A stretch of DNA of 44,575 nt from Agromyces humi. Its GTDB lineage: Bacteria; Actinomycetota; Actinomycetes; Actinomycetales; Microbacteriaceae. The DNA lies in the NCBI RefSeq assembly GCF_009720255.1, contig NZ_WJSP02000005.1:1-44575 (forward strand), given 5' to 3'. Of this stretch, positions 15,592-35,034 are shown in pieces. The notes below the pieces were generated by a model. That model did not search any database and was not told the origin of the DNA. It saw nothing but the letters and a program-made list of their open reading frames with translations. The position numbers and the translations under genes were made by a program. The first letter of the stretch is position 1; every line of letters begins with the position of its first letter.

Positions 15592-15599
15592 GATGGTGC

Positions 15600-15935: not shown

Positions 15936-15953
15936 TCCACCGCGGCCAACTGG

Positions 15954-15960: not shown

Positions 15961-16000
15961 TCTCACCCCTGAAGATCGCCGCCCAGGCCGTGATCTCCAT

Positions 16001-16071
16001 GGCGTCTTGCCCGAGTGGCTAGGGGCTCGCCTGCAAAGCGAGAGACGTCGGTTCGAACCCGACAGACGCCT
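16001..16071 (+). tRNA. tRNA-Cys (GCA), decodes TGC/TGT
   Basis: Acceptor GGCGTCT/AGACGCC, anticodon arm CTCGC-CTGCAAA-GCGAG, T arm GTCGG-TTCGAAC-CCGAC. No encoded CCA. Confidence 0.95.
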
Positions 16072-16171
16072 CGATCTTCATCCACTGTGGGGTCTTCGAC
16101 GACGACGACCAACGCCCAGAAAGTAGCAACACCGACCGAACTACCCGAACACCGAGAGAGGAAAGAACCCC

Positions 16172-16687
16172 GTGACCGCCGCAGTCGTCGTGCTGAACGC
16201 CAGCTTCGAACCGCTCGGGATTGTCTCGCTTCACCGAGCGATGGCGTTCCTGCTGAAGGAGCGCGCCGTCATCGTCGAAGCGGTCCCCGGTCAGACGGTC
16301 CGGTCAGCGACAGCGGAGTACCCGTTCCCTCGAGTTGTGCAGTTCCGGGAGATGGTGCGCGTCCCCTACAAGTACGGTGTGCAGCCATGGACTCGCGAAG
16401 GTGTCCTGCAGCGCGACCGTGGTCTTGGGTGTGCGTACTGCACCAAGCCAGCACGGCCGACGACGATCGACCACATCATGCCGAAGTCGCGGTTCGTCGG
16501 GAACCCGAACACCTGGCTGAACACGATCGCAGCTCACACCGAGTGCAACGGCCGGAAGGCCGACCGCACCCCGCTCGAGGCGGGCATGCCGCTGCGCTAC
16601 CAGCCGCGTGAGGTGACTACGAGGGACACGCTGCTCGTCGCGATGGCAGAGGTCGGCGCTGACCTGGTCGCCTTGGGGCTCGCCTAG
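16172..16687 (+). CDS. HNH endonuclease
   Basis: 171 residues from a GTG after GAGAGGAAAGAACCCC. The N-terminal half (VVVLNASFEPLGIVSLHRAM) is the usual lead-in of the actinobacterial HNH family. The nuclease core is about 88-140: CAYC, DHIMPKS, NTWLN and HTECNGRKAD, giving the Cys pairs for structural zinc and the D-H...N...H metal-binding set. Such genes are free-standing nucleases in many actinobacteria and phages; packaging-linked or homing roles cannot be told apart here. It ends overlapping a - strand small gene. Confidence 0.9.
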   Translation: MTAAVVVLNASFEPLGIVSLHRAMAFLLKERAVIVEAVPGQTVRSATAEYPFPRVVQFREMVRVPYKYGVQPWTREGVLQRDRGLGCAYCTKPARPTTIDHIMPKSRFVGNPNTWLNTIAAHTECNGRKADRTPLEAGMPLRYQPREVTTRDTLLVAMAEVGADLVALGLA

Positions 16688-16836
16688 TCGTCGTCCGCGG
16701 GGTCCTTCTCGACGGCGTCCTCGTCCCAGCGCCCGCCGGAGAGCAGGTTGAGGTACGCGGCGAACGCCGCCGGTTCCTCTTCCGGCGTGATGCCGTGCTC
16801 GGCCCTGTACTCCGCCCAGCTCTGCCGGTCGTTCAC
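16684..16836 (-). CDS. small acidic protein, 50 aa
   Basis: GTG at 16836 on the - strand; an in-frame TGA two codons upstream fixes this start. The reading NDRQSWAEYRAEHGITPEEE, then AAFAAYLNLLSGGRWDEDAV and an acidic end, looks like a real helical protein with C/G-biased third positions. The Shine-Dalgarno is weak (GAAAG right next to GTG). It overlaps the end of the HNH gene by 4 nt and lies downstream of the wall-protein gene, beyond the terminator. Unknown function. Confidence 0.6.
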   Translation of the reverse strand: MNDRQSWAEYRAEHGITPEEEPAAFAAYLNLLSGGRWDEDAVEKDPADDD

Positions 16837-16903
16837 CTTTCAACGGTGGGCGACCGGCACGGGCTGGCGCAAGCCCTTGCCCGGCGCGAGCCCCTGGGCA
16901 TGC

Positions 16904-16948
16904 GAGAAGCCCCGCCCCCGATGTTGCTGGGGCGGGGCTTCTCGTTTT
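16904..16948. terminator. strong intrinsic terminator of the wall-protein gene
   Basis: GAGAAGCCCCGCCCC (16904-16918) pairs with GGGGCGGGGCTTCTC (16929-16943), 15 bp, with GTTTT after it on + . It lies between the end of the wall-protein gene (16959, -) and the 50-aa gene, and can fold in either direction. Confidence 0.85.
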
Positions 16949-16958
16949 CGCGCTGGAC

Positions 16959-18215
16959 CTACGCGCTGAATGCGCCGCGCTTGCGCGCGACGAGGAACAC
17001 GCCACCTGCGGCGATCAGCGTCAGGGCCGCGGTGAGCGGGCCTGCGAGACCGAAGCCGGTGTCGGGGTGGCCCTCCTCGGCGACGGCCGCAGCGGCTGCA
17101 GCCTTCACCGTGATGGTGCCGGACTGGTACTCGACGCCTGCGGTGTCGACGAGCACGATGTGGTGCTCGCCGGCCGGGGCGTTCGCCGGAATCTTCACGT
17201 AGCCGTCGATCTTGCCGTCGGCGTCAGCGGTGAGCTCGCCGAGGAGGATCGGGTCGGAGTGCAGGTAGACCTTGACGACCTCGTTGGCCTTGAAGCCCGA
17301 GCCGGTCACGCGGAAGTCCTCACCGGCGACAGCGTCAGCTGCCGGGACGGTGTTGGCTGGCTTCGGGGCCTCGGCGCCGGGGTTCTCCGTGCCGGGGTTC
17401 TCGGTGCCGGGGTTCTCGGTGCCAGGGTTCTCCCCACCGGGGTTCTCCCCACCGGGGTTCTCGCCGCCGGGGTTCTCCCCACCGGGGTTCTCGCCGCCGG
17501 GGTTCTCGCCGCCGTCACCGGGCTCCTCGCCGCCGTCACCAGGCTCCTCGCCGCCGGGGTTGCCCCCGCCGTCGCCAGGCTCCTCGCCGCCGTCACCGGG
17601 CTCCTCGCCGCCGTCACCAGGCTCCTCGCCGCCACCGGGCTCCTCGCAGTCCTCGGCCGTGGCCGGGCGCGACTGCTCCTCGGTGTCGCCGATCGCGGTC
17701 TCGCCGGGGACGAACGACTGCGTCGGGACGTCCCAGACCCAGTCGTAGCTCTCGGCGCCGTAGTGCGTCCATGCGAAGACGCCAGCCTCACAGTCGAGCG
17801 TCTCGGGGCCGTCGTACGCGGCTGCCGTGGTGACCGGGTCGGGCTTGACGTCGTCGGCGCCAGGACCGCAGTCAGCGGCTGCGCGCTCGTCGACAGTGGC
17901 GTCACGGGTGGTGTCGGTGACGTCGCCGCCGGTGGTGCCGGCGGGGTCCTCGATCCACGTGTCGGTGCCGCCGTCATCTGCCTCATCCCACACCCAGTCC
18001 TGCAGGACGGCGGAGGTGATGCGGATCGGGATGCTGCCGTCGAGACAGTTGGCGGGGCCGGTGGCCTCGGTGATCTCAGCGGTCACCTCGACGGCGTCCG
18101 GCTTCGGGCTGTCGGGCGCGGCGAACGCCGGCGACACGAATGCCCCAGCGACGCCCGAGCCGACCAGGACACCGGTCAGCGCGAGTGCGCCGAGCCGGGT
18201 GGTGCTCTTCTTCAT
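16959..18215 (-). CDS. sortase-anchored surface protein with Pro/Gly-rich stalk
   Basis: 418 residues, ATG 18215 after CAAAGGACCAAC on the - strand. Order: signal peptide (KKSTTRLGALALTG to SPAFAAP, about 1-35); two Cys-bounded modules each with DWVWD (about 40-190); a repetitive stalk of EEPGDGG, ENPGGE and ENPGTE units (about 195-285); an Ig-like domain (DFRVTGSGFKANEVVKVYLH); and a sorting signal HPDTG (383-387), hydrophobic helix and RKR tail. HPDTG departs from LPxTG but keeps P, T and G. It faces two sortase genes, so a phage-coded cell-wall display protein is likely. Transcript from a divergent - strand copy of the promoter element. Confidence 0.85.
   Translation of the reverse strand: MKKSTTRLGALALTGVLVGSGVAGAFVSPAFAAPDSPKPDAVEVTAEITEATGPANCLDGSIPIRITSAVLQDWVWDEADDGGTDTWIEDPAGTTGGDVTDTTRDATVDERAAADCGPGADDVKPDPVTTAAAYDGPETLDCEAGVFAWTHYGAESYDWVWDVPTQSFVPGETAIGDTEEQSRPATAEDCEEPGGGEEPGDGGEEPGDGGEEPGDGGGNPGGEEPGDGGEEPGDGGENPGGENPGGENPGGENPGGENPGGENPGTENPGTENPGTENPGAEAPKPANTVPAADAVAGEDFRVTGSGFKANEVVKVYLHSDPILLGELTADADGKIDGYVKIPANAPAGEHHIVLVDTAGVEYQSGTITVKAAAAAAVAEEGHPDTGFGLAGPLTAALTLIAAGGVFLVARKRGAFSA
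17380..17645. repeat. short tandem codon repeats encoding the stalk
   Basis: Degenerate 15- to 21-bp units encode PG-rich repeats of the wall protein. Copy number is likely variable between relatives. Confidence 0.85.
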
Positions 18216-18376
18216 GTTGGTCCTTTGGTGGATTGCGTGATTCGCGGCGGCCGCCAGCAGCTGCAATATGCACACGGACGCCGCAGGAGCATTCCCAGCG
18301 GGAACGCACCGTTGCCTCCTCATGCACACGCCGCCGCAAAACCGGGAGGATTCCCGGACACGGACGCCGAGAACCA

Positions 18377-18386
18377 CATGCGCGGG
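18377..18386 (-). promoter_or_regulatory. - strand CCCGCGCATG element, divergent copy
   Basis: Read on -, this is an exact copy pointing at the wall-protein gene, with about 150 nt of leader. Only AAT... (18387-18389) separates it from the + copy. Confidence 0.7.
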
Positions 18387-18389
18387 AAT

Positions 18390-18399
18390 CCCGCGCATG
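18390..18399 (+). promoter_or_regulatory. CCCGCGCATG element, predicted leaderless start of sortase 1
   Basis: The C of CATG (18396) is 12 nt before ATG 18408. Forms a palindrome with the - strand copy. Confidence 0.75.
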
Positions 18400-18407
18400 A
18401 ACTTCGT

Positions 18408-19121
18408 ATGCGCCGCCACCGGATCTTCACCATCGCCGGCGAGCTGCTCCTCACCGCTGGAGTGCTCGTCCTGCTGTACCTCGGATGGAAGCTGTGGTGG
18501 CAGGACACGATCGCCGCGCAGCAGCAGACCGCAGCGGCGTCGGCGCAGTCCGAGGAATGGATCGACGAGTTCGACCATTCCGGCCGGACCGGCGTCGACT
18601 TCGACAAGTACGACCCGCCGGTCGGCGTCGCCCCGGCCACAGATCAGGGGTTCGCGGTGCTGTACGTCCCGAGGTACGGCGCTGACTACCGACGCAACAT
18701 CGCTGAAGGGTTCAGCGACCAGGTGCTCGACAGCTTCGACCTTGGCATCGGCCACTACCCGGGCACCCAGATGCCCGGTGAGGTGGGGAACTTCGCGATC
18801 GCCGGTCACCGCTCCGCGTACGGCGGGGCGATGCACTGGATCGACCAGCTGCAGCCCGGGGATCCGATCATCGTGCAGACCGCCGACGGCTGGTACACGT
18901 ACCGGTACCGGAGCTCGGAGATCATCGAACCGTCCGAGATCGAGGTGGTGCTGCCCGTCCCGCGGCAGCCTGGCGTCGCGCCGGTGAAGCGGACGATCAC
19001 CCTGACCACCTGCGACCCGCTGTACTCGTCCGAGCACCGCTGGGTGGCGTACGGCGAGTTCGAGTCGTTCTCCGCACCGAACGACCCGCCCGCCGATGTC
19101 GAACACCTCGTCAACCAGTAG
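18408..19121 (+). CDS. class E-like sortase 1
   Basis: 237 residues. N-terminal membrane anchor (IFTIAGELLLTAGVLVLLYL, about 5-27) and an extracytoplasmic sortase domain. Catalytic set: His in FAIAGHRSAYG, Cys in TLTTCDP and Arg in SSEHRWVAYG, in the class E pattern TLTTC. ATG 18408 is 12 nt from the promoter element; longer open frames upstream run through intergenic DNA and were discarded. It should cleave at the Thr-Gly bond of a sorting signal and join it to peptidoglycan. Divergent neighbour of its probable substrate. Confidence 0.95.
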   Translation: MRRHRIFTIAGELLLTAGVLVLLYLGWKLWWQDTIAAQQQTAAASAQSEEWIDEFDHSGRTGVDFDKYDPPVGVAPATDQGFAVLYVPRYGADYRRNIAEGFSDQVLDSFDLGIGHYPGTQMPGEVGNFAIAGHRSAYGGAMHWIDQLQPGDPIIVQTADGWYTYRYRSSEIIEPSEIEVVLPVPRQPGVAPVKRTITLTTCDPLYSSEHRWVAYGEFESFSAPNDPPADVEHLVNQ

Positions 19122-19134
19122 CCGGAGGCCCACC

Positions 19135-19308
19135 ATGTACGCAGCCTTGTTCCGCACCCTTCCAGGTCCGCTGTGGCTTCGGATCGTCCTCGTCGTGATC
19201 CTCGCCGCGGCGATCGTGCTCGCCCTGTTCGCCTGGGGATACCCGTGGATGGACACGATCATCGACCCGCAGGACGTCACGGTCGCCGACCCGGCCGCGC
19301 ATGAGTAG
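19135..19308 (+). CDS. small sortase-associated membrane protein, 57 aa
   Basis: ATG after CGGAGGCCCACC (strong Shine-Dalgarno), 13 nt after the sortase stop. One transmembrane helix at about 14-37 (LRIVLVVILAAAIVLALF), then WGYPWMDTIIDPQDVTVADP. From memory, proteins with a GPLWLR start and a WxYPW...P...VTV end sit next to sortases in actinobacterial chromosomes, so the pair may have been acquired together (inference). Its stop codon lies inside the next promoter element. Confidence 0.85.
   Translation: MYAALFRTLPGPLWLRIVLVVILAAAIVLALFAWGYPWMDTIIDPQDVTVADPAAHE
19295..19303 (+). promoter_or_regulatory. CCGCGCATG element, near-leaderless start of dUTPase
   Basis: The C of CATG (19300) is 13 nt before ATG 19313. 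The element overlaps the end of the preceding coding sequence. Confidence 0.7.
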
Positions 19309-19312
19309 TGGC

Positions 19313-19780
19313 ATGACCACCATCGCCGCCGACCTCGAGGTCGAGCAGATCAACATCAAGTTCAAGCGACTCCACCCCGACGCAGTCATCCCGAAGCAGG
19401 CGAAGTACGGCGACGCCGGCGTCGACGCCCGCTCCGTCGACACGTACGTCCTCGAGCCCGGCGACACCGTCCTCGTCCACACCGGCTTCGCGGTCGAGAT
19501 GCCGTACGACACCGTCATGCAGGTGTGCTCCCGTTCCGGGCTCGCGCTGAACCACTCGATCATCGTGCTGAACGCCCCCGGCCTCGTCGACGCCGGCTAC
19601 CGCGGCGAGATCATGGTCATCCTCCATAACGCCAGCCGGAAGCAGTTCACCGTGAACCCCGGCGACCGGATCGCACAGCTGATGTTCCAGCGGTACCTCG
19701 TCCCGGTGTTCGTCGAGACCAACGAACTGTCCGCTTCGGATCGAGGCGCCGGAGGCGCCGGCCACACCGGAATCGCCTGA
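19313..19780 (+). CDS. dut: dUTPase (dUTP diphosphatase)
   Basis: 155 residues, typical of the trimeric family. Converts dUTP to dUMP and pyrophosphate, limiting uracil in DNA and feeding dTMP synthesis. The five motifs are visible: AGVDARS (1), CSRSGLALN (2), GLVDAGYRGEIMV with catalytic Asp (3), NPGDRIAQLMF (4) and RGAGGAGHTG (5). ATG 19313 is the first in frame after the element; no Shine-Dalgarno. Precedes two nucleotidase genes, forming a pyrimidine-nucleotide group with the ribonucleotide reductase genes further on. Confidence 0.95.
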   Translation: MTTIAADLEVEQINIKFKRLHPDAVIPKQAKYGDAGVDARSVDTYVLEPGDTVLVHTGFAVEMPYDTVMQVCSRSGLALNHSIIVLNAPGLVDAGYRGEIMVILHNASRKQFTVNPGDRIAQLMFQRYLVPVFVETNELSASDRGAGGAGHTGIA

Positions 19781-19938
19781 TCCGCGAGGGTCCTCGGCTG
19801 GGTGTGAAACCTGAGTCACAGACCACTCTTCTCCCAGCTTTTCCCCAGCCGTTGACGCCCGAAACGGCCGCCCCGCAAACATCTGGCGTCATACGCTTTC
19901 AGACGTCCAGTGCAGGGCATGCGCTGGGCAGCAAGGGT

Positions 19939-19971
19939 GCCCGACCACAGTTTCGGGTTCTGGGGTCGGGC
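19939..19971 (+). terminator. hairpin after dut
   Basis: GCCCGACC (19939-19946) pairs with GGTCGGGC (19964-19971). It lies just before the stronger hairpin at 19978. Confidence 0.5.
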
Positions 19972-19977
19972 GGGCTG

Positions 19978-20014
19978 AGAAGGGGCCGCTTTCATCGGGT
20001 GAGTGGCCCCTTCT
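19978..20014 (+). terminator. strong hairpin terminator after dut
   Basis: AGAAGGGGCC (19978-19987) pairs perfectly with GGCCCCTTCT (20005-20014). No long T run, but the 10-bp stem in a 264-nt non-coding gap (19781-20044) suits transcription arrest. Confidence 0.7.
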
Positions 20015-20025
20015 ACCCCCACGGT

Positions 20026-20034
20026 CGCCGCATG
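20026..20034 (+). promoter_or_regulatory. CGCCGCATG element variant
   Basis: The C of CATG (20031) is 14 nt before ATG 20045 and directly follows the terminator. Confidence 0.6.
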
Positions 20035-20044
20035 GCCCAGAGGT

Positions 20045-20365
20045 ATGCAACACCTCGACCTCCCCGCCGCCGAGTCCGCCCGCGATGACATCGCCTCGCT
20101 TCCGCCTGCAGCTCGAGCGGAGATCTCCGCCCACGCGCTCAGCACCGTCGACTACACGTACTGGCTGAAGAAGGCTGCCGCGACCGCCGTCGCAGCCGAC
20201 CCGGACGCCGAAACGTTCCTGTCGACACTCGACCCCGACCCCGGCGTGAACGGCCCGGCCGTCGCCGCCCTCGTCGAGCCGCTGATCGGACGAGGTGTCC
20301 ACCGGGCGCAGCTGTGGCTGCTCACCGGCGCGTACGACGGGCATCTGGCCGCCGCTGCCGCGTGA
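20045..20365 (+). CDS. hypothetical helical protein, 106 aa
   Basis: ATG 20045, 14 nt after the element variant, preceded by a weak AGAGG. An Ala-rich all-helical soluble protein (ESARDDIASLPPAARAEISA, YWLKKAAATAVAADPDAETF, LWLLTGAYDGHLAAAAA). No motif. Unknown. Confidence 0.75.
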   Translation: MQHLDLPAAESARDDIASLPPAARAEISAHALSTVDYTYWLKKAAATAVAADPDAETFLSTLDPDPGVNGPAVAALVEPLIGRGVHRAQLWLLTGAYDGHLAAAAA

Positions 20366-20367
20366 TT

Positions 20368-20376
20368 CCGCGCATG
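20368..20376 (+). promoter_or_regulatory. CCGCGCATG element, predicted leaderless start
   Basis: The C of CATG (20373) is exactly 12 nt before ATG 20385; no Shine-Dalgarno. Confidence 0.75.
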
Positions 20377-20384
20377 GGAGTGGC

Positions 20385-20966
20385 ATGAGCATCCCCTTCA
20401 CCGTCCTCCTCGACATCGACAAGCCGATCGCGATGTGGGAAGAAGGCGTCGTCGACCTGGCACGGGAGATGCACCCCGACGTGGAGGTCGCTGATGCCGG
20501 CACCCGTGAGGTGTATGACTTCCTGCCCGTCACTCCGGAGCCGGAGCGTTCGTCCCTCCTCGCGGCGATGAACGCGCCCGGACTGTATCGAGGGTTCCAG
20601 GTGGTCGAGCATGCCCTCGAGACCATCGACCTGCTGCTCTCCGACGGGGTGAACGTCAAGCTCTGCTCGACACCATCACCGACGAACCCGACCTGCGCGT
20701 CCGACAAGTACTGGTGGGTCGGGGAACTCAGCAGGGAGCTCGTCAAGCGAACCACCCTGACGTTCGACAAGACGATGTGCATGGGCCACGTCCTCGTCGA
20801 CGACAAGGACGTCATCACCGGCGACAACCCGAACCCGATGTGGGAACGGATCATCTACGACGCGCCGTACAACCAGCACGCGACCGGCCTGCGCCTGTAC
20901 GACTGGCGCGACCTGCCGGCCATGCTCGAACCGATCCGGTTCTCGTACGAGCGGCGTGCAGCATGA
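20385..20966 (+). CDS. 5'(3')-deoxyribonucleotidase-like HAD phosphatase, copy 1
   Basis: 193 residues. HAD motif I is VLLDIDKPIAMW (two Asp, nucleophile and acid/base), with the small-cap insertion typical of 5'(3')-deoxyribonucleotidases (NT5C). Motif II is KLCSTPS, motif III Lys is in TFDKTM and motif IV is LVDDKDVITGDNP. It would dephosphorylate deoxynucleoside monophosphates. KP replaces the usual GV after the second Asp. Clearly a paralogue of the next gene (shared NPTCASDK, VDDKD, ITGDNPNP and DAPYNQ). Leaderless start predicted. Overlaps the next gene (ATGA). Confidence 0.85.
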   Translation: MSIPFTVLLDIDKPIAMWEEGVVDLAREMHPDVEVADAGTREVYDFLPVTPEPERSSLLAAMNAPGLYRGFQVVEHALETIDLLLSDGVNVKLCSTPSPTNPTCASDKYWWVGELSRELVKRTTLTFDKTMCMGHVLVDDKDVITGDNPNPMWERIIYDAPYNQHATGLRLYDWRDLPAMLEPIRFSYERRAA

Positions 20967-21619
20967 CCGGACCAGCCGTCCTCACTCGCGCCGCCTCCGA
21001 GGCCGCGTGGCTCGAGCGAATGCGGAACCACCCGATGCGGGGCCTCATGCCGTTCACAGTCCTCATGGACATGGATGGGCCGACAACCCACTGGTACCGG
21101 TACATCGTCGACGAGACGAAACGCCGGAACCCCGGCCTCCACGTCCACGAGCCGCACGAGCACACCAGCTGGAAGATGCTCTCGGAGCTGCCTGCCGACG
21201 AAGCTGCCGCGATGAACGAGGTCATGAGCAGCCCTGGACTGTACCGGACTATGACCGCCACCCCCGGCGCTAAGGAAGCGATCGCGGGCATGTTGGAGCT
21301 CGGCTGGCTCGTGCGGTTCTGCAGCACAGCGTCGCTGGACAACCCGACCTGCGCGTCCGACAAGCTCGTCTGGCTGGAAGAGGAGTACAGCCGCGACCTT
21401 GCCAAGACGGCGATCCTCACCGGTGACAAGACCTTCGCTCTCGGCCATGTGATCGTCGACGACAAGGACAAGATCACCGGCGACAACCCGAACCCGGTGT
21501 GGCTGCACACCGTCTTCGATGCCCCGTACAACCAGGGAGCACAGGGGCCGAGGATTGCCGCCGACTGGTCCAACTGGTACGAGGTGCTCGGCCCGCTCGC
21601 TGAGGCAGCCACGGCCTGA
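20963..21619 (+). CDS. 5'(3')-deoxyribonucleotidase-like HAD phosphatase, copy 2
   Basis: 218 residues, ATGA overlap with copy 1. Motif I is VLMDMDGPTTHWY, closer to the family consensus than copy 1. Motif II is RFCSTAS, Lys lies in LTGDKTFA and motif IV is IVDDKDKITGDNP. It has about 25 extra N-terminal residues. The shared later half with diverged caps suggests tandem duplication and specialisation for two nucleotides. TGATG overlap with sortase 2, so all three are translationally coupled. Confidence 0.85.
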   Translation: MTGPAVLTRAASEAAWLERMRNHPMRGLMPFTVLMDMDGPTTHWYRYIVDETKRRNPGLHVHEPHEHTSWKMLSELPADEAAAMNEVMSSPGLYRTMTATPGAKEAIAGMLELGWLVRFCSTASLDNPTCASDKLVWLEEEYSRDLAKTAILTGDKTFALGHVIVDDKDKITGDNPNPVWLHTVFDAPYNQGAQGPRIAADWSNWYEVLGPLAEAATA

Positions 21620-22389
21620 TGAGCGGACGTCGGCGCGCGCGGAGCCGGACACACCCGATCACCGTCGGGTTCGAGGTGCTCCTCACCGTCGGCGTCCTCA
21701 CCTGCGGATACCTCGGCTGGAAACTCACCCCGGATCCGCCCGCACCGCCGGTCCAGGTTGAGGCGGCAGGTCTCGCGAGCGACGACTGGGAAGCGGAGTT
21801 CGCGTCCCTGTCACGCAGGACCGGCCCAGAACTCGAGCGAATCGCTGACGAGGAGTACCGGAACCTCAACACCGACCCAGCCGACATCGGCACGGTCGTC
21901 GGAGTGCTGTACGCACCGAGGCTAGGGGACCAGTTCAAGGTGACGATCCTCGAAGGCACGAACAAGGACGACATCCTCGACACCGGCGCCGCCGGCCGCT
22001 ACCAGCAGACCGCGCAACTCGGCGGCGCCGGGAACGCGGTGATCACCGCTCACCGTTCCGCGTACGGTTCGCCGTTCTGGAACCTTGCCGAGCTCCGCGT
22101 CGGCGACCCGATCTACGTCGAAACCGTCGACGGCTGGTACGAGTACCGGTACCGGAACTCCGCGTACGTCGACCCGTCCCAGATCTCCGTTCTCAACGAC
22201 TGGCCGGACACCGAGAACATCGGGTTCGACCACCTCCTCACCCTCATCTCCTGCAACCCGCGATACGTGGCCAGCGAACGCCTCGTCGCGTACGCCCTGC
22301 TCGAGTCGTTCACGCCACGGAGCGAACCCGCACCGGCGGACGTCGCACCTCTCCTCGACATCGAACCTGACCGTGGGGTGCACTGGTGA
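21619..22389 (+). CDS. class E-like sortase 2
   Basis: 256 residues, TGATG overlap. Basic N-terminus, membrane anchor about 13-36 (PITVGFEVLLTVGVLTCGYL), then a sortase domain with His in VITAHRSAYG, Cys in TLISCNP and Arg in VASERLVAYA. Paralogue of sortase 1 with the same flanks (YEYRYRNS versus YTYRYRSS). The variant TLISC suggests a different substrate preference. Two sortases with one obvious substrate is unusual; a second substrate may be outside the window or the two may act in sequence. Confidence 0.95.
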   Translation: MSGRRRARSRTHPITVGFEVLLTVGVLTCGYLGWKLTPDPPAPPVQVEAAGLASDDWEAEFASLSRRTGPELERIADEEYRNLNTDPADIGTVVGVLYAPRLGDQFKVTILEGTNKDDILDTGAAGRYQQTAQLGGAGNAVITAHRSAYGSPFWNLAELRVGDPIYVETVDGWYEYRYRNSAYVDPSQISVLNDWPDTENIGFDHLLTLISCNPRYVASERLVAYALLESFTPRSEPAPADVAPLLDIEPDRGVHW

Positions 22390-22871
22390 CCGGCAAGGGC
22401 ACGGTCGCGATCGCCGCGGCCGCTGCAGCATCGATCGGCGCTGCCGCGATCCTCTGGGCTCTCGTCCTCTCCGCGCCGGCACCGGAACCTCCACAGGTCG
22501 TGCTCATCGTCCCCACGCTCGAGCCCGACGCGCCGGCGGCACCGCCTCCGGTGTACGCAGCGGAGATGACCGACTCCGGCGCCAGGCGGTTCTTCGACCA
22601 CGTCGCCACCCAGGTCGCCGCGACGGGGAGCATGGACGGCGGCGCCTACGCTGCAGCGTTCGTCGCTGCCGGAGTGCCAGGCGAACTCGTGGAAGCAAGC
22701 GAATCGGTCACCACCGACGGATATGCGGCTGAGACCGTGCAGTTCTCCGTCCGCTGGGCCGACCGGTGCGTGATCGGCGACGTCGGCCACGGCACCTACA
22801 CCTCGCAGGTCGAACCAGCGTTCCACTGGGGCACCTGCCTGGCCGGGAACACACGCCCGCGCACCTGGTAG
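22386..22871 (+). CDS. secreted DUF6993-like protein
   Basis: 161 residues from GTG 22386, overlapping sortase 2 (GTGA). Signal peptide or anchor at about 5-28 (TVAIAAAAAASIGAAAILWA), a Pro/Ala linker, then a domain with FFDHVATQVAATGSMDGGAY, FSVRWADRCVIGD and HWGTCLAGNTRPRTW. The Cys pair and the G-x-C-L-x-G-x-T-R-P-x-x-W end match, from memory, the DUF6993 type of actinobacterial exported proteins. It carries no sorting signal. Operonic with sortase 2. Confidence 0.75.
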   Translation: MTGKGTVAIAAAAAASIGAAAILWALVLSAPAPEPPQVVLIVPTLEPDAPAAPPPVYAAEMTDSGARRFFDHVATQVAATGSMDGGAYAAAFVAAGVPGELVEASESVTTDGYAAETVQFSVRWADRCVIGDVGHGTYTSQVEPAFHWGTCLAGNTRPRTW

Positions 22872-22872
22872 T

Positions 22873-22881
22873 CGCCGCATG
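22873..22881 (+). promoter_or_regulatory. CGCCGCATG element variant before the sigma-like gene
   Basis: Overlaps the end of the preceding gene (stop 22871) and stands 28 nt before the TTG at 22901. Confidence 0.55.
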
Positions 22882-22900
22882 CCTCCCCGATAAGCGCGCA

Positions 22901-23701
22901 TTGCGCGGCTTCCGGGACGGCAAGGAGTGCGCAATCGACACCGCGGACGATCTGAACCGTCTACGCGCCTGCGTTCACTCGATCCCGGACGACCCGCCCG
23001 TCTACGGGACGTGGTGGGCTGGAGATGAGGGTCGCTGGCTGTACGACCAGATCGCTGAACGGTTCGGGACACCGATCTCCGCGTGGCTGCGGCGGCGGTT
23101 CGGGACGCCCTGCGACCCCTACGACGTGGCGAACACCGCTGTCGACATCCTCGCAAGGCCCACCTCCCTCTCCGGCCTGCAGTCCGCGTACGAGCCGTGG
23201 ACGTACCTGTACTCGATGATCCGGCGGGAGCTCAGCAAGCAGCTCGGCGGGTTCTTCCGGGTGGATGTCGGCGGTGACCTCAGCCGGGTGTGCGAGGAGG
23301 CGCGCGAGGAATCTCCGCTCACCCCCGTCGACGAAGCCGTCGACCAGGTGACTCGGATCCTCGCCCCACACGCGGGGATGCCACCGAACCGGCTCCGCGA
23401 ACTCGTCGCGTACTTCGCCGACCACGGAGACCGGAACCTCTCGCACCTCCACTCCGTCGCCGCACGCGACCCTGAGCTCCTCCAGCGCGGATACACGAAG
23501 GGTCAGATCCTCGCCGCCGCGAACGCGGTGCTCGGCGCCCGACCTCGGCATTGGGAAGCGTCCATCCTCGGCGAAGTGATCCGGGACCGCGACTGGACGC
23601 CAGCAGCATCACCGGCGCACTGGCGGGCGATCGAGAAGTTCGGACGGCGGATGCGCCAACCAGAAGGGACCGACGTCCAGGAGTTCGCACGCGCCGGCTG
23701 A
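22901..23701 (+). CDS. putative sigma factor-like protein
   Basis: 266 residues if TTG 22901 is the start; no ATG or GTG fits and no Shine-Dalgarno is seen, so the N-terminus is uncertain. Residues about 46-115 (RWLYDQIAERFGTPISAWLR, PYDVANTAVDI, WTYLYSMIRREL) follow the layout of ECF sigma region 2, with the DAEDVxQ-like helix and a W-Y-L-I-R helix. An acidic linker and a helical C-terminal domain (ELVAYFADHG to GYTKGQILAAANAVLG) could be region 4. A different DNA-binding role is possible. It lies among sortase and secretion genes and is a candidate reader of the CCGCGCATG element. Confidence 0.5.
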   Translation: MRGFRDGKECAIDTADDLNRLRACVHSIPDDPPVYGTWWAGDEGRWLYDQIAERFGTPISAWLRRRFGTPCDPYDVANTAVDILARPTSLSGLQSAYEPWTYLYSMIRRELSKQLGGFFRVDVGGDLSRVCEEAREESPLTPVDEAVDQVTRILAPHAGMPPNRLRELVAYFADHGDRNLSHLHSVAARDPELLQRGYTKGQILAAANAVLGARPRHWEASILGEVIRDRDWTPAASPAHWRAIEKFGRRMRQPEGTDVQEFARAG

Positions 23702-23711
23702 TGAGCGTCTT

Positions 23712-23720
23712 CGCCGCATG
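23712..23720 (+). promoter_or_regulatory. CGCCGCATG element variant (TTCGCCGCATG)
   Basis: Shares TTCGCCGCATG with the copy at 38452. Predicted transcript from about 23729, with Shine-Dalgarno GGAGG before ATG 23772. Confidence 0.6.
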
Positions 23721-23771
23721 TCCACCCGATGCCCGGCAGCCCCGCGCTGCCCGAACCGGAGGACCCACACC

Positions 23772-24839
23772 ATGACCGATTCGTCCGTCACCAACCCGTA
23801 CGAGGTCGACATCCTTCGCGGACGCCGCGCAGGCGACGAAGTGGTCGCTAAAGCACTCGACACCCTCGCAACCCTCCTCGCCGGCGGTGACGAACGGGCA
23901 GCGCTCGAAGCTGCAGCGTCACGGTTCCAGAGCTACGACATCGGCAGGTCGTTCGCGCGCGCCACCGCCGGGCTCGACCTCGGCACGATGACTCTCCGCG
24001 AAGTCCTCGCAGCCGAACCGGTGATCCCCGAATCCGTCCGCCGGCTCGTCGAATACGACCTCAACACCCCGGTCGAAAACATCCTCGCCCGCGCGGCGCA
24101 GCGGATCACCGAGCACCGAACGCTGCAGCGTCGCCTCTGGACGTCCTCACTCCCTGGCTTCGTCGCATTCACCGCCGCAGCCGCGCTCGTCTGGGTGGAC
24201 GCGACGTACATCATCCCGGAGTACGTGAACACCTTCGCCAACCTGAACGCGGACGTTCCACCCCTGGCTTCAACGGTCGTCGACGCCGCATCCGTCGCCC
24301 AAGTCGTCGCCGTGTGGGCTCTCGGAGCTGTCGTCGCGGCCGTCCTGTTCCTCGCGACGTTCGGCCGTGCCGTCCCGGCGGTCCGCGCAGCCGTCGAACG
24401 GGCGTCGTTCCTCATCCCCGGTGTCGGACCTGCGATCAAGCTGGCTGCCGTCTCCCGGTTCCTGGAGGTGCTCGGCGACCTGCTGGCGGCTGGCGCACCA
24501 GAGCGTGAAGCACTCCGCGCAGCCGGCGAAGCGGCCGGGCCGGAGACGTTCCGCCGGGCCGGGAACGCAGCCGAAAGTGTCGCGGACCTCGCTTCGGTCA
24601 AGCTGCTCCCGGAGTCGGCGCGGTTCCTGTTCAACGCGAACGCTGGCGCGGTCGACCAGATCGCCCGGCGCTCCGCCCAGAAGTACCTTGCAGCCTCCAA
24701 CGAGCAGCTCGACGTGTTCTCCCGCGTGGCCGAGCCGTTCGGGAGCGTCGCCGCGTACACCCTCGCCGTCGTTGTGGTGCTCGCGTCCGTCGCCCCGCTG
24801 TTCGCTATCGCCCCAGCGTTGGCTGCCTTCACCGGCTGA
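23772..24839 (+). CDS. T2SF/TadC-like inner-membrane secretion protein
   Basis: 355 residues, ATG after CCGGAGGACCCACACC. Resembles the type II secretion/type IV pilus platform family (GspF, PilC, TadB/C): a helical cytoplasmic region, a hydrophobic segment about 128-152, another about 180-205 (AVWALGAVVAAVLFLATFG), an F-domain repeat RFLEVLGDLLAAGAPEREAL with the typical LL-x-G-x3-x-EAL pattern, and a last helix (AYTLAVVVVLASVAPLF). A T2SF protein assembles pilins with an ATPase, none of which is seen here. TGATG overlap with the next gene. Confidence 0.75.
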   Translation: MTDSSVTNPYEVDILRGRRAGDEVVAKALDTLATLLAGGDERAALEAAASRFQSYDIGRSFARATAGLDLGTMTLREVLAAEPVIPESVRRLVEYDLNTPVENILARAAQRITEHRTLQRRLWTSSLPGFVAFTAAAALVWVDATYIIPEYVNTFANLNADVPPLASTVVDAASVAQVVAVWALGAVVAAVLFLATFGRAVPAVRAAVERASFLIPGVGPAIKLAAVSRFLEVLGDLLAAGAPEREALRAAGEAAGPETFRRAGNAAESVADLASVKLLPESARFLFNANAGAVDQIARRSAQKYLAASNEQLDVFSRVAEPFGSVAAYTLAVVVVLASVAPLFAIAPALAAFTG

Positions 24840-25441
24840 TGAGCGTCACAGCCAACCCCGACCTCACGTCGCACGGAAGGCCTCTCGCTGCACCGGCGCC
24901 ATGGATGGTCGCCACCCTCACAGCCGCTGCAACGAACGCTGCAGCGATCCCTGCCGGGCCGGTGTACCAGCTGACCCTGACCGCCGTCGCGTTCGTCGCT
25001 GGCCTCCTCGGGCAGGTCGAACCTCGCGGCGGGACGCTCAACGCCTGGCAGCTGCTCTCGTTCACCGCGGTGGTCGCCGGGACTGTGGCGACAGCGCAGG
25101 CACTCGGGACCGGGAGGGCTCCAGCGCTTGTGGCCATCGTCGTCGCATCCCTCACCGCGATCGTGTTCCTGGCGATGTCCGCAACCGGTGGGGCTGCGTC
25201 CGGCGATGTGAAGCTCGCCCCGCTGGTCGCCGCGGCAGCCGCGACCATTGACACGATCACCGCCGGCCTCTGGGTGGGATCCACGGTCCTGATCATGGGC
25301 GGCGCAACCGTCCTGTCCACGGTCCGTCGCGACAACCCTGAAACACCTCGACCCCTGGCCGCGTTCATGGCGGCCGGCATACCGATCGCGGTCGCGGTGA
25401 CGTTCTGGTTCAGGCCGGAGTTGGTGGCGCTTCTCGCCTGA
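24839..25441 (+). CDS. prepilin-peptidase-like (A24 family) membrane protein
   Basis: 200 residues, very hydrophobic, about six membrane helices. The segment GAASGDVKLAPLVAA resembles the GxGDxKL active-site loop of type IV prepilin/TadV-type peptidases, with Ser for the middle Gly neighbour. The other catalytic Asp, expected in an earlier loop, is not obvious: GLLGQVEPRGG is at the expected place without Asp. It may therefore be inactive or a divergent form. TGATG coupling to the T2SF gene supports joint function in prepilin handling. Confidence 0.65.
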   Translation: MSVTANPDLTSHGRPLAAPAPWMVATLTAAATNAAAIPAGPVYQLTLTAVAFVAGLLGQVEPRGGTLNAWQLLSFTAVVAGTVATAQALGTGRAPALVAIVVASLTAIVFLAMSATGGAASGDVKLAPLVAAAAATIDTITAGLWVGSTVLIMGGATVLSTVRRDNPETPRPLAAFMAAGIPIAVAVTFWFRPELVALLA

Positions 25442-25460
25442 ACACCCTCGCAAGGTTCAA

Positions 25461-25470
25461 CCCGCGCATG
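25461..25470 (+). promoter_or_regulatory. CCCGCGCATG element
   Basis: Copy 105 nt before GTG 25575; a predicted transcript from about 25479 would carry a leader with a 16-codon ORF. Confidence 0.6.
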
Positions 25471-25522
25471 AGCGTCCCGACATGCCCGGCAGAAGCTGGG
25501 CTTCGACGACCGGAAGACCCGA

Positions 25523-25573
25523 ATGCGTGAACCCGACAGCCGCTCACAGCAGCCGAACACGAGGTGGTGCTGA
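25523..25573 (+). CDS. possible 16-codon leader ORF
   Basis: ATG after CCGGAAGACCCGA reads MREPDSRSQQPNTRWC to TGA. Third positions are mostly C/G, unlike the frame of the longer candidate starting at 25482. Its stop is 1 nt before GTG 25575, suggesting translational coupling. Confidence 0.35.
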   Translation: MREPDSRSQQPNTRWC

Positions 25574-25574
25574 C

Positions 25575-25994
25575 GTGGCGGCCGGACACCTCGGCGAGCT
25601 CGCCCGGCCGGAACCAACCGGTGATCCCGTGCGTGACCTTGCCGCGTCCAGCTTCCAGGTGTTCGACGTGGTGCTCGACACCGAGGACGGCCGCGCCGTC
25701 ATCCTCGACGGTACCGGGCATGCGCCCGACGAGATCGTCACGTTCGTCACCCACTCGGACGCGCCGCACACCTTCGTGCAGTACCCCGGCCTGGCCTCGG
25801 TGATCCGGGTCGAGCAGGGCCTGTTCGCGTGGCGTGACGACGAGCTCGTCGAATCCCCGCGCGGGCGCCCCGTGACGTTGGTCACGGAGATCCGGAAGAC
25901 CGCACTGTCCGGCCGACCAGTCCTCGAGGACGACGCACCCGACGGCCCGCGCATGTTCGTCACGCACCTGAACCCCATGGAGGCCGCAGCGTGA
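25575..25994 (+). CDS. hypothetical protein, 139 aa
   Basis: GTG 25575 is preceded by GAGGTGGTGCTGAC. An upstream ATG at 25482 is in frame, but the 31 extra codons have poor C/G third positions, so I reject it. A beta-rich acidic protein (FQVFDVVLDTEDGRAVILDG, HTFVQYPGLASVIRVEQGLF, FVTHLNP). No motif recognised. Overlaps the next gene by 4 nt (GTGA). Confidence 0.7.
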   Translation: MAAGHLGELARPEPTGDPVRDLAASSFQVFDVVLDTEDGRAVILDGTGHAPDEIVTFVTHSDAPHTFVQYPGLASVIRVEQGLFAWRDDELVESPRGRPVTLVTEIRKTALSGRPVLEDDAPDGPRMFVTHLNPMEAAA

Positions 25995-26263
25995 CCGACA
26001 CCGCCGAGCTCAGCCGCACCCGAACGAAGATCGACCTGGTCGGATCCTTCGACAACCTCGTCTCGTTCATCGGCGAGCCAGAAACGTTCGACGTGCGCAC
26101 GCAGGTGCATCTCGCAGATGCGTTCGCGCAGATGGAGCAGGCGAAGCAACGCCGCATCGGCAACCTCCTCGAGCTGGCATCCCAGACCTCCGACGCCGCC
26201 GTGAAAGCGCGGCTGCAGCGCATCGCAGCGGAGCTCCTCGGGGTGGAGGGGGTGGCGCCGTGA
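25991..26263 (+). CDS. hypothetical helical protein, 90 aa
   Basis: GTG 25991 overlaps the previous stop. Likely all-helical (QVHLADAFAQMEQAKQRRIG, LLELASQTSDAAVKARLQRI). Could be a small dimerising protein. No family recognised; GTGA coupling to the SLOG gene. Confidence 0.75.
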   Translation: MTDTAELSRTRTKIDLVGSFDNLVSFIGEPETFDVRTQVHLADAFAQMEQAKQRRIGNLLELASQTSDAAVKARLQRIAAELLGVEGVAP

Positions 26264-31785: not shown

Positions 31786-32216
31786 GCGTCCCACTGCCGA
31801 TCTTCGGTGAACTCGTCGACGGCGACATGGACCTGATCCGCGCCGCCAAGCAGGCCCTCGACGTGCCGTTCCTCGTCAGCCCCCGCCCGGCCAACCCCGA
31901 GCTCCGCGGGAACCTTCGCGTCCTCGCCATCCGGAACCGACCCACCTACCTCTGCGAGAACGTCCTCGTGCCAGACCCGCACGACGCCACCGCCCTCAGG
32001 TCGGCGCTCGCGTGGACACTGCGCGTCACCGACACCCACCACCTGGCGCTCACCGTGGACGAGATGGTGCTGCCGCTGCTCCGCGGCGCCTTGGGTCCCG
32101 GGGTGCGCGAGCTCATTGACGAGCCGGCCCCGGCGCCAGCCACTCCGGAAGGGAAGGTCCAGCCGAGGCAGTTCGACGGATGGGCGGCCGCGTCAGAGGT
32201 TTTCGCCAACGCCTGA
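31782..32216 (+). CDS. hypothetical protein, 144 aa
   Basis: ATG 31782 overlaps the previous stop (ATGA). Starts PLPIFGELVDGDMDLIRAAK; later LRVLAIRNRPTYLCENVLVP and LTVDEMVLPLLRGALGPGVR. Mixed alpha/beta; C-terminus Pro/Ala-rich linker and an acidic helix. No motif recognised. Confidence 0.7.
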   Translation: MSVPLPIFGELVDGDMDLIRAAKQALDVPFLVSPRPANPELRGNLRVLAIRNRPTYLCENVLVPDPHDATALRSALAWTLRVTDTHHLALTVDEMVLPLLRGALGPGVRELIDEPAPAPATPEGKVQPRQFDGWAAASEVFANA

Positions 32217-32224
32217 CCCTCCCG

Positions 32225-32233
32225 CCGCGCATG
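32225..32233 (+). promoter_or_regulatory. CCGCGCATG element, predicted leaderless start
   Basis: The C of CATG (32230) is exactly 12 nt before ATG 32242; no Shine-Dalgarno. Drives the longest gene. Confidence 0.75.
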
Positions 32234-32241
32234 ACTGGGCC

Positions 32242-35034
32242 ATGGAGACGAACCAGCCCATCGACCTCACCGCTGTGGACACCGCACTCGCGCGACTGCA
32301 GGACACCGTCGAGTCCGCCAGCACCTCACCTGATATGGCTGAGCCGGCAGGCACCGACCTTGCGATCTCCGGTGTCGACACTGCGCTCGCGCTGAAGGAG
32401 CGGATGGCGCTGCAGGCGCGCGCCGCGATGAACGCGCAGAAAGCGGCGATGGAGCAGCAAGCGGAGGTGCGGGGCGCGCTCGAACAGGCCCGCCGACAGG
32501 CTGATGCGATGATCTCCGAAGCCCGCCGCCGCGAAGCGGAGATCATGGCGAAGCTCGCTCCGATCCTCGAGCAGGCCAAGCTCGCCGCCGAAGGCATCGA
32601 GGCGTTGAACCTCTACCTCGGCCGTGACGAGTGGGTGCACACCATCCGGGAGGGCGCGCCCGCGCCGGCGTCCGAGCCGATCACCATCCGACAGAGCGTC
32701 GTGGCGTTCGACGAGGAGACCGCGCTGCGCGCCGAGGACGGCGGCATCGACCACATGAACATCAACGAGTTCGACGCGTGGTTGCTCGCCGACCCCGCCA
32801 ACGTCGATCAGGTGGTGCCCGAGCAGAAGTGCGTCGTCGCTGCGATCGCCAAACGCGCCCTGGTGTTCACCGGCAACCCATGGGAGGACAACGCCCAGAA
32901 CAAAGCCAACCACGAGTCCTGGCTCATAATCCGCAACGGCGAGAACCTCTACCGGATCAACATCTCCGAGGAGTTCACTGTCGGTGAGCGCCTCGTCCCG
33001 AAGGCCGACGAGTTCACCTCGCTGTTCCTGGCCCGCGGCCGGGACGGTGAGCTCGAGCCGCTCCGCCCCGGCACGACAGAGTGGGTGAAAGCGGAGAAGC
33101 AAGCGAACGCGCGCACCCGCCACTACATGAAAATCGCCCTCTGCGTACAGGGGCTGATCGATAGGGCGGCCTACCTTCGACCTCTGCCCGGCCCCGTCTC
33201 CGTGATCGAGCAGGCGTCGTACGACGCCGGCCACGTCCGGGTGGTCACCGATGGGGAGAACGCCATCGACTCAGGTCGGGCGCCTTTCAACGATTGGCTG
33301 GCTGAGAAGCTCAAGATGCTCCGACCCGGCATCCGAGTCGTCGGACACTACCCGTACCGGTACGAAGAGAACCCGTACGGACGACGGGTCTCCAACGTCC
33401 ACCCGAGCACGGCGCACACGCCGGAGAGCATGGAGGTGCAGACGATCTCCAGGCTCGACAGCGACGGCCAGGCGGTCTTCACCTACGACCGCACCGACAG
33501 CGTCTGGACCGAGTACGGCTCCCGGCAGGCGAGAAGCAAAGCCAGCTACACGATCTGGAAGGACACCGCGACGGTCGTCCCCATCGACTTCGTCACCGAG
33601 GAGGAGCTGCACTACTACCTCGAGTCCCGCTCCGAGCGCCGGCACTACGTGAAGATGTTCCCCGCCCTCCGCGCCGCCCTCGAGGTGCTGAGCCGCGAAC
33701 GCAAGGAGGAGGCACCGTTCCGAGCGCTCCTGTCCGCGGAGCTGCAGAAGAAGTTCAACTCCGACGCGGTCGACGCAGATCGCCAGACCGACGAGCTCGT
33801 CCGCTGGTGGAAGGTCGCCAACAAGTGGAACCGCGCGCTCAACGGCGCACCGGACGACGAAGCGAAGGCGGCACGGGTGATCCTCAAGGAAGCCACCCGC
33901 CGCGCGAAGATCGCCGAAGCCGGCGGCGACGACAAGATCGTCGAGAAGCTCCGCGCTGACCACGACGACGTCCTCGTCATCGCCAGACGAACCAATGACC
34001 TCGTCGTCGTGCAGCGCATCAACCGGAAGTGGCCGTGCCAGGACGACAAGTACAGGACCAAGGTCGCCGTCGAGAACTTTTTCGTTCGGATCACCGTCGT
34101 GAAGCCCTCCGGTGACGTCGTGGAGGTTCGGGACTGGCAGCACCTCACGCGCTCCGCGATCGCCAAGTGGCAGGTTCTCTGGCAGGACGCCGCATGGGAG
34201 CAGTGGGACATCAACGGCTCCTGGGCGTCGCACCTGACCGACCCGGAGATCGACGAGGTGATCGAGAAGGCCCTCGCGTTCGCCGCCGCGAACGGGTGGA
34301 CCCCGATAAGCATCAGCCTCTCCGAGGACAGCATGTACACCCTCGCGATCCGGGGAAAGCTGCACTACGTCGACGGCCACGCACCGGTTGCCCCGGCTGA
34401 AGGGGAGGAGCTCACCGGCACCTACGACAAGAGCTTCACCAGCAAGTCCAGGGACATCGGTGCGCGCGAAGCGGGCAAGTTCGAGACCAACAAGTACTCG
34501 CACGACGAGAACTGGACCCGACCGTACCGCAACCACTGGCGCCCCGACGAGCCCGCCCCCGGAACACGGATGCTGGCGCCGTGGGAGTCCGACAGCGAGC
34601 GGCACCGTATCGTCTGGGTGGACGAGGACGCCGTGGAAGCCGCCCGGTCCGCGGCGGACGAGTGGAACGTCGCCGACCTCCGGCGGAGCGACCTGGCCAC
34701 CGAGGCCACCAAGCTGTTCAGCGCCATCGAGCACGGATGGCTGGACCGTGAATGGGAGCGGCGCCGTCTTCGCTTCATCGAGGACTACGGCGACGCGTCA
34801 CTCTGGGACGACCACAAGAAGGCAGTCACCGTCCACCTGCCCACCGACCACCGCGGTGCCAAGCGCGGGGCGAAGCCGACCAGCTGGGCGGGGCTCCGCG
34901 CCGAGATCACCGACGCGGTTCAGGGACGTCGCGACATCCGCGGGCTCACCGTCGCCGAAGCGTTCGGCGCTGCAGCCGTGAAGGACTGGCCGGACGAGAT
35001 CGCATCCCTCAGCTTCCCTGCTGCAGCTGAATAA
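32242..35034 (+). CDS. large hypothetical protein, 930 aa
   Basis: The longest gene, leaderless start 12 nt from the element. Order: disordered N-terminus; coiled coil about 50-125 (KERMALQARAAMNAQKAAME; ALEQARRQADAMISEARRRE); then a long alpha/beta region with GNPWEDNAQNKANHESWLII, RNGENLYRINISEEF and DRTDSVWTEYGSRQARSKAS; a mid-region SERRHYVKMFPALRAALEVL; KNWPCQDDKYRTKVAVENFF-like beta; and a helical C-terminus. No Walker motif, metal site or membrane segment is evident. I recall similar NE-SW-LIIRNGENLYRI segments in other large phage proteins but cannot name the family. A structural or host-takeover role is possible. Confidence 0.75.
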   Translation: METNQPIDLTAVDTALARLQDTVESASTSPDMAEPAGTDLAISGVDTALALKERMALQARAAMNAQKAAMEQQAEVRGALEQARRQADAMISEARRREAEIMAKLAPILEQAKLAAEGIEALNLYLGRDEWVHTIREGAPAPASEPITIRQSVVAFDEETALRAEDGGIDHMNINEFDAWLLADPANVDQVVPEQKCVVAAIAKRALVFTGNPWEDNAQNKANHESWLIIRNGENLYRINISEEFTVGERLVPKADEFTSLFLARGRDGELEPLRPGTTEWVKAEKQANARTRHYMKIALCVQGLIDRAAYLRPLPGPVSVIEQASYDAGHVRVVTDGENAIDSGRAPFNDWLAEKLKMLRPGIRVVGHYPYRYEENPYGRRVSNVHPSTAHTPESMEVQTISRLDSDGQAVFTYDRTDSVWTEYGSRQARSKASYTIWKDTATVVPIDFVTEEELHYYLESRSERRHYVKMFPALRAALEVLSRERKEEAPFRALLSAELQKKFNSDAVDADRQTDELVRWWKVANKWNRALNGAPDDEAKAARVILKEATRRAKIAEAGGDDKIVEKLRADHDDVLVIARRTNDLVVVQRINRKWPCQDDKYRTKVAVENFFVRITVVKPSGDVVEVRDWQHLTRSAIAKWQVLWQDAAWEQWDINGSWASHLTDPEIDEVIEKALAFAAANGWTPISISLSEDSMYTLAIRGKLHYVDGHAPVAPAEGEELTGTYDKSFTSKSRDIGAREAGKFETNKYSHDENWTRPYRNHWRPDEPAPGTRMLAPWESDSERHRIVWVDEDAVEAARSAADEWNVADLRRSDLATEATKLFSAIEHGWLDREWERRRLRFIEDYGDASLWDDHKKAVTVHLPTDHRGAKRGAKPTSWAGLRAEITDAVQGRRDIRGLTVAEAFGAAAVKDWPDEIASLSFPAAAE

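Follow-up and report, generated by a model that had tools for sequence, protein, structure and literature searches.

A class E-type sortase pair and an HPDTG wall protein in a probable Microbacteriaceae megaplasmid region

The HPDTG wall protein and the two sortases

The DNA analyzed here (the window) is a 44,575-nucleotide contig (NZ_WJSP02000005.1, contig C445) of the Agromyces humi genome assembly (G000; 4.39 Mb in 812 contigs), and it holds, within 9 kb, genes for a putative cell wall-anchored protein, two sortases, a small membrane protein, a DUF6993 protein, a T2SF platform protein and a relative of prepilin peptidases (Table 1). The genes that an earlier note on this DNA had named are real and lie where it placed them, and its reading of them as surface-display machinery is borne out by the sequence. 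Its description of a single module is correct as to gene content, but the stretch separating the sortases holds a dUTPase gene and two NT5C genes, so the set is not one uninterrupted module.

The wall protein has the architecture expected from the earlier note: a signal peptide (Sec-type, judged by eye), a Pro/Gly stalk and an HPDTG signal, encoded divergently from sortase 1. Its head has two Cys/Trp-bearing repeats (by eye) and DWVWD repeats and is followed by Pro/Gly/Glu repeats, a pre-anchor domain (residues 285–372) and the C-terminal end GHPDTGFGLAGPLTAALTLIAAGGVFLVARKRGAFSA. By eye and by script scan, the protein has the signal peptide, C-terminal TG pentapeptide, hydrophobic segment and basic tail of a sortase substrate. 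Its resemblance to the NCBIfam PGS Ig-like domain was weak (21 bits, cut-off 45). A second HPDTG wall protein is encoded on contig C5 (701,121 bp) of the leaf isolate Leifsonia sp. Leaf264 (C5:506156-507445); it ends in EHPDTGFNPLLP and is 55% identical to the window protein over 94 residues, the pre-anchor domain being common to both and the heads aligning poorly.

Residues 285–418 of the wall protein, used as query, found matches in 48 of 60 genomes of the genus, its own included. Nineteen C-terminal signals were read at such pre-anchor loci outside the window, by a script scan limited to certain first residues and certain TG endings: 14 were LAxTG, four LGxTG and one IPVTG, and none was HPxTG. 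G000 has one other protein with the pre-anchor domain; it is encoded on contig C756, and its signal is LAETG. Counting it, the genus signals read outside the window are LAxTG in 15 of 20 cases and HPxTG in none. A YDWTWY stretch in this C756 protein (L183:2102-4939) is reminiscent of the DWVWD repeats of the window protein's head. In the two plasmid-bearing genomes, a pattern coding for HPDTG occurred nine times, and two of these occurrences were sorting signals, those of the window and C5 wall proteins. Across 398 genomes of the family, a pattern for HPDTGF, which requires Phe after Gly and could let other HPxTG signals escape, gave 20 matches in 18 genomes (three for the reversed control); the same two plasmid wall proteins again supplied the only C-terminal sorting signals. 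C5 carries in addition one LAETG and one LSSTG protein. The window wall protein is likely to be anchored by a plasmid sortase.

Both sortases are genuine members of the Pfam Sortase family (Table 1) and retain the catalytic His, Cys and Arg as well as the β3/β4 Tyr. Sortase 1 scores 242.5 bits against the NCBIfam class E family NF033747, above the cut-off of 160; sortase 2, at 152 bits, falls under the cut-off, with class E still its best family. Sortase 1 is 50–59% identical to the SrtE of 53 of the 60 genus genomes, including that of G000 itself on contig C346. The srtE gene on C346, whose neighbors we take to be crgA-like and pabA-like, is followed directly by a gene for a small membrane protein resembling the one encoded after sortase 1, in keeping with the "small partner" of the earlier note; the C5 relative of this protein is located elsewhere, at approximately 96.5 kb. 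Sortase 2 is 57–58% identical to its C5 relative, and the next matches listed in the 398 family genomes reach at most 46%; against genome contigs, it matched Leifsonia Leaf264 and, weakly, Acidobacteria. In a tree of 36 sortases, the two plasmid copies of sortase 1 form a clade (support 100/98), as do the two copies of sortase 2 (100/100, on a stem of 2.12), from which we infer that both sortases were already present on the common ancestor of the two plasmids, with no separate capture. The sortase 1 pair groups with the SrtE of Leifsonia C8 at 91/84, below the support level starred in the tree. A second, very long-branched class E-like sortase was seen in addition to the usual one in another genus genome (G057:C8; L043:3593-4345).

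Table 1. Features of the window, with the evidence recorded for each
Feature	Position	Strand	Evidence or remark
Wall protein, 418 aa	16959..18215	-	Signal, head, stalk, pre-anchor domain, HPDTG
HPDTG sorting motif	17055..17069	-	Followed by hydrophobic segment and basic tail
Pre-anchor domain, residues 285-372	17100..17363	-	Homology search, alignment
Divergent intergenic region, wall protein/sortase 1	18216..18377		162 bp between starts
Sortase 1, class E	18378..19121 (ATG 18378 or 18408)	+	Pfam Sortase 96.9 bits; NCBIfam
Small membrane protein, 70 aa	19096..19308	+	Relative directly after srtE on contig C346
dUTPase, intervening	19301..19780	+	Pfam
Two tandem NT5C-like nucleotidases, intervening	20385-20966, 20963-21619	+	Pfam; C5 comparison
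Sortase 2, diverged from class E	21619..22389	+	Pfam Sortase 85.9 bits; NCBIfam; C5 relative
DUF6993 protein	22386..22871	+	Pfam 69.3 bits (cut-off 25)
Unassigned open reading frame	22766..23701	+	True start probably later
T2SF platform protein	23718..24839	+	PF00482 33.1 bits (cut-off 25.2)
Prepilin-peptidase (A24) relative	24839..25441	+	C5 match, same order after T2SF
972-aa gene marking the megaplasmid family	32116..35034	+	Homology searches

The replicon that carries the region

Thirty-seven of the 54 open reading frames (ORFs) of the window match C5 at E≤1e-5, and 29 of these lie on one strand of C5, within approximately 63 kb running across both contig ends and mostly in window order; the remaining eight are located elsewhere on C5. 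No 20-base overlap was found between the C5 ends in the stretch tested, so the circularity of C5 relies solely on this synteny. C5 in turn resembles the Curtobacterium plasmid D40, recorded as a circular plasmid of 607,661 bp, of which 300 kb plus one 42-kb stretch were covered. Relatives on C5 were found for nine of 11 chosen D40 proteins, namely RepA (41% identity), an integrase (44%), a TraG-like protein (40%), two ParA proteins (one 63% over its full length), two FtsK-like proteins, SMC and UvrD; RepA and ParA thus both occur on C5. The nrdE and nrdF genes are 76–78% identical to those of D40.

The 972-aa gene of the window also points to plasmids. Of 72,556 plasmids, 1,248 carry a match to it, including many from enterobacteria, and the eleven best among the matches listed are actinobacterial plasmids of 266–608 kb; matches with at least 80% coverage were on three Curtobacterium plasmids, one Euzebya plasmid and one Streptomyces plasmid. 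In 299 family genomes (its own included), there was one other relative, 45% identical and on C5, besides three short weak matches. Phage records gave four weak matches of 22–26% identity, and the protein had no Pfam match at E≤0.05 and no PHROGs match at E≤0.1. Because the collinear C5 has RepA, ParA and a TraG-like protein and the 972-aa gene finds its matches on plasmids, the window is read, with high confidence from sequence comparison, as part of a Microbacteriaceae megaplasmid, probably of 0.6–0.7 Mb as judged from its relatives. Some findings weigh against this assignment: the D40 ParB-domain and helicase proteins (two of the 11 tried) had no C5 relative, the second D40 ParA matches C5 at 29% over about half its length only, and RepA and ParA sit on the collinear C5, not inside the window.

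The window has 19 transfer RNA (tRNA) genes at 851–16072, and C5 has 42 together with one transfer-messenger RNA (tmRNA) gene, 41 of the 42 tRNA genes lying within its first 40 kb and last 16 kb. The window array is interspersed with ORFs that include genes for an RNA ligase (5815–6867) and RtcB (9178–10389; 92% identical to C5), which may form a set for tRNA repair next to the array. The C5 tmRNA gene (L051:18642-19035) lies inside the tRNA-rich first 40 kb. According to the available parts of two papers, mycobacterial plasmids have tRNA arrays and HNH genes, pMP7017 a tRNA array and a tmRNA, and pCPAA3 a tmRNA (PMC10832533, PMC5966550). The arrays of the window and C5 are thus like those of the mycobacterial plasmids and of Bifidobacterium breve pMP7017, and the tmRNA of C5 parallels those that these sources, as far as available, give for pCPAA3 and pMP7017. 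The actinobacterial tRNA-array megaplasmids D40 and the 567-kb Curtobacterium pusillum plasmid (probably pCPAA3) belong to the same size class; D40 is further alike in RepA and ParA, in its nrd genes and in pilus ATPases accompanied by T2SF and a peptidase.

Sortase 1 matched 18 plasmid records at E≤1e-6. None of the 18 is from Curtobacterium, and the 190-kb B. breve plasmid (NZ_KM406416, probably pMP7017) gave only a distant sortase match (35%). The match on a plasmid of Arthrobacter StoSoilB13 has no annotation at the matched place. Class C sortases on Enterococcus and Lactococcus plasmids are likewise sortases on a mobile replicon; they are class C where annotated and approximately 26–33% identical to sortase 2 among the matches listed, whereas the window enzymes are class E-derived.

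The earlier note had taken the genes to be phage-borne, a description that these comparisons do not uphold. Arrays of tRNA genes and genes for dUTPase, RNA ligase, ribonucleotide reductase and HNH proteins are frequent in large phages, and the window has all of these; PHROGs families also match several of its proteins. However, no virion family exceeded its cut-off among 30 window proteins scanned with Pfam, and there was no convincing virion match among 20 scanned with PHROGs; no terminase, portal or capsid protein was found in either set, and the families recognized were mainly nucleotide, RNA-repair and enzyme families. A PHROGs tail row at E 0.064 and a Pfam portal row at 10.8 bits (cut-off 39.1) are at noise level. 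The search of 50,697 phage records, made for sortase 1 and T2SF, returned no relative of sortase 1 at E≤1e-3 and none of T2SF at E≤1, and no viral-contig relative of sortase 1, T2SF or the 972-aa protein appeared in a search reaching close relatives only. When positions 14001–26700 were compared with phages by megablast, 213 records were returned, and the best 20 of the 213 matched only a tRNA-Pro stretch. With relatives that are plasmids bearing RepA and ParA, carriage of these genes by a phage is very improbable.

Comparison with SrtE1 and the candidate reader of HPDTG

Both plasmid sortases matched Streptomyces coelicolor SrtE1 (PDB 5CUW), an enzyme with LAXTG substrates, and keep its His, Cys and Arg as well as the equivalent of Tyr229; points of difference are that sortase 2 scores under the class E cut-off, that its Ala249 equivalent and the stretch preceding its Cys are altered, and that the plasmid wall signal is HPDTG instead of LAXTG. 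In the available part of the SrtE1 paper, Tyr229, Ile215, Leu221 and Ala249 contact the second residue of the signal, the β3/β4 and β6/β7 loops contact the signal, and the class E Tyr229 is thought to favor Ala over Pro at position P3 (PMC5148588). With SrtE1 residues assigned by counting along the alignment, the Ala249 equivalent is Ala in all 31 other SrtE rows and in both copies of sortase 1, and Thr in both copies of sortase 2. The stretch before the catalytic Cys is VP in the other 31 rows and DWPD in both copies of sortase 2. At nine positions where the 31 rows are near-invariant and sortase 1 follows them, both copies of sortase 2 have changed to an identical residue. These changes agree with an altered specificity of sortase 2 but do not prove it. 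Sortase 1 is an ordinary class E enzyme and can probably process LAxTG substrates. On these grounds, sortase 2 rather than sortase 1 may read HPDTG, at about even odds.

Several observations weigh against sortase 2 as the reader and against a distinct HPDTG route. It is sortase 1, and not sortase 2, that is head to head with the wall gene, and this divergent arrangement, with 162 bp between the starts, favors sortase 1 as the partner. Six near-invariant positions are changed alike in both copies of sortase 1, the Tyr229 equivalent is retained in both plasmid sortases, and SrtE1 itself, in the available part of its description, can also recognize Pro at P3 (PMC5148588). The 31 SrtE rows are the best-scoring matches and hence an uneven sample, the HPDTG gene of C5 lies approximately 180 kb from both C5 sortases, and conservation of the signal is seen in only two HPDTG wall proteins; the restricted signal scan described above counts on the same side. 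It is accordingly a serious, if lesser, possibility that sortase 1 anchors the HPDTG protein and that sortase 2 serves some other substrate or linkage, for example a pilin or another plasmid protein. This alternative is opposed by the retention in sortase 1 of the Ala249 equivalent and the usual pre-Cys stretch, both altered in the two copies of sortase 2, and by the arrangement on C5, where no wall protein is divergent from sortase 1, that place being taken by a 179-aa ORF followed by a pilin-like protein. The pilin-like protein in question (C5:690347-691804; L065:5347-6804; 485 aa) is encoded on the strand opposite C5 sortase 1, near the position that the wall protein has in the window.

The sortases might instead only add dosage to host LAxTG anchoring, leaving the HPDTG protein unanchored. 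The LAETG and LSSTG signals on C5 and the closeness of sortase 1 to the usual SrtE of the genus (50–59%) are in line with this explanation, but two plasmids that have diverged both keep HPDTGF together with its hydrophobic segment and tail in intact form, and we regard the dosage explanation as improbable.

Pilus-type genes and a proposed anchoring route

The T2SF gene announced in the earlier note is confirmed by its Pfam score (Table 1). Its prepilin-peptidase-like gene stands in part: the product matches the Leifsonia protein encoded after T2SF (33%, E 1.5e-9, with the low-complexity filter off), but with the filter on the match is absent at E≤1e-5, and there was no Pfam match at E≤1 and no NCBIfam match at E≤0.01. 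Glu replaces the first catalytic Asp, and the second is kept, but in ASGD instead of GGGD; A24 peptidases have two catalytic Asp residues, the second in GxGD. A structure model of the protein had a predicted local distance difference test score (pLDDT) of 43.9, too low to inform on the fold. The window T2SF is 29% identical to the T2SF of C5 locus B and 25–29% identical across the C5 T2SF proteins.

C5 carries two sets of pilus-type genes. Locus A (476971–491051) has T2SSE-type ATPases, T2SF, a peptidase matching PF01478 (36.5 bits) and pilin-like proteins; locus B (683006–676291) has two T2SSE ATPases, T2SF, a peptidase relative and a pilin-like protein, and adjoins DUF6993 and sortase 2. "Pilin-like" was judged by eye on C5, and two such proteins that were scanned had no Pfam pilin match. 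Flanking locus B are genes for a CHAP-domain protein and for a secreted reprolysin-like protein (C5:683082-683906 and 671450-674317; L064). In G000, locus A lies on contig C112 and is truncated there by the end of the contig, with 72%, 67% and 57% identity to the locus A ATPases and T2SF; the two C112 ATPases are 72% and 67% identical to those of locus A, as against 45% and 38% for locus B, and none of the seven T2SSE matches in G000 was seen to be closer to locus B. D40 has T2SF followed directly by an annotated prepilin peptidase, the same order as in the window.

The earlier note had proposed looking for pilins and an ATPase in the flanks; neither was found in the window. No secretion ATPase family appeared among the 30 proteins scanned with Pfam, the C5 pilins had no relative in the window at E≤1e-3, and a pattern for pilin N termini, which picked out two of three C5 pilins as a control, had no match there. 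Its suggestion of an appendage holds insofar as these plasmids carry pilus-type genes, both sets on C5 and the first in G000 on C112; the window T2SF and peptidase relative lack ATPase and pilin neighbors and look like part of a second set. Since the pair has no ATPase or pilin beside it and shows the Asp-to-Glu change, a remnant or repurposed pair is the simplest reading, and within the limits set by the fragmented G000 assembly, we somewhat favor the view that the two genes are left over from a second pilus operon of the plasmid, one that is complete on C5. The alternative that the pair works with the locus A ATPases, building a second appendage together with the sortases, draws on the presence of locus A in G000 and on the complete locus B beside DUF6993 and sortase 2 on C5; given the missing ATPase and pilin genes, the lost catalytic Asp and a T2SF only 25–29% identical to those of C5, it is unlikely.

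Among the neighboring genes, the DUF6993 protein has a hydrophobic N terminus (by eye) and adjoins sortase 2 on C5 too, and the unassigned ORF that follows it in Table 1 has no C5 relative at E≤1e-5. Elsewhere in the window are genes for a glutathionylspermidine-synthase-like protein (12660–13865; 468 bits, 73% on C5), a secreted CAP-domain protein whose C terminus has a hydrophobic anchor but no TG sorting motif and which has a C5 relative (28193–29068), and NrdE (35813–38044). G000 encodes another NrdE on contig C379, and the two share 82% identity.

Plasmid-borne sortases and class E sortases are known already. On balance, the genes described here suggest that the megaplasmid encodes, in this region, a route of its own for attaching proteins to the cell wall. 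In this route, Sec would export the wall protein, whose C-terminal tail would keep it in the membrane; a plasmid sortase would cut between the Thr and Gly of HPDTG and join the protein to a cell-wall precursor, and the head would then stand out from the surface on its Pro/Gly stalk. Sortase 2, altered in the substrate-contact region, would be the likelier reader of HPDTG, and T2SF and the A24-like protein would be a decayed or repurposed part of the second pilus operon, outside the module core. Through the head, cells with the plasmid may gain a new surface property, for example adhesion, cell–cell contact or shielding.

Sortases define separate anchoring channels through their signal. A class E-derived megaplasmid sortase shifted to HPDTG could, as a tentative extension, constitute a natural host-orthogonal channel apart from host LAxTG sorting. 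The literature searches made turned up no actinobacterial megaplasmid with both a conserved HPDTG signal and a diverged class E-type sortase, and in the one search directed at HPDTG as a sortase target, an engineered sortase was the only case among the papers listed. That engineered mutant, according to the accessible text, targets HPDTG and was used for histone H2B (PMC8895396, PMC9126251); the pentapeptide is the same, but the enzyme is a laboratory mutant, whereas the window has a natural signal near class E-derived sortases. If the proposed shift is real, such a natural HPDTG enzyme could serve as a tool for protein labeling. A supposed phage oddity is in any case placed in a family of very large actinobacterial plasmids, and if the anchoring route operates as proposed, a mobile replicon of this family would keep its own route for surface display.

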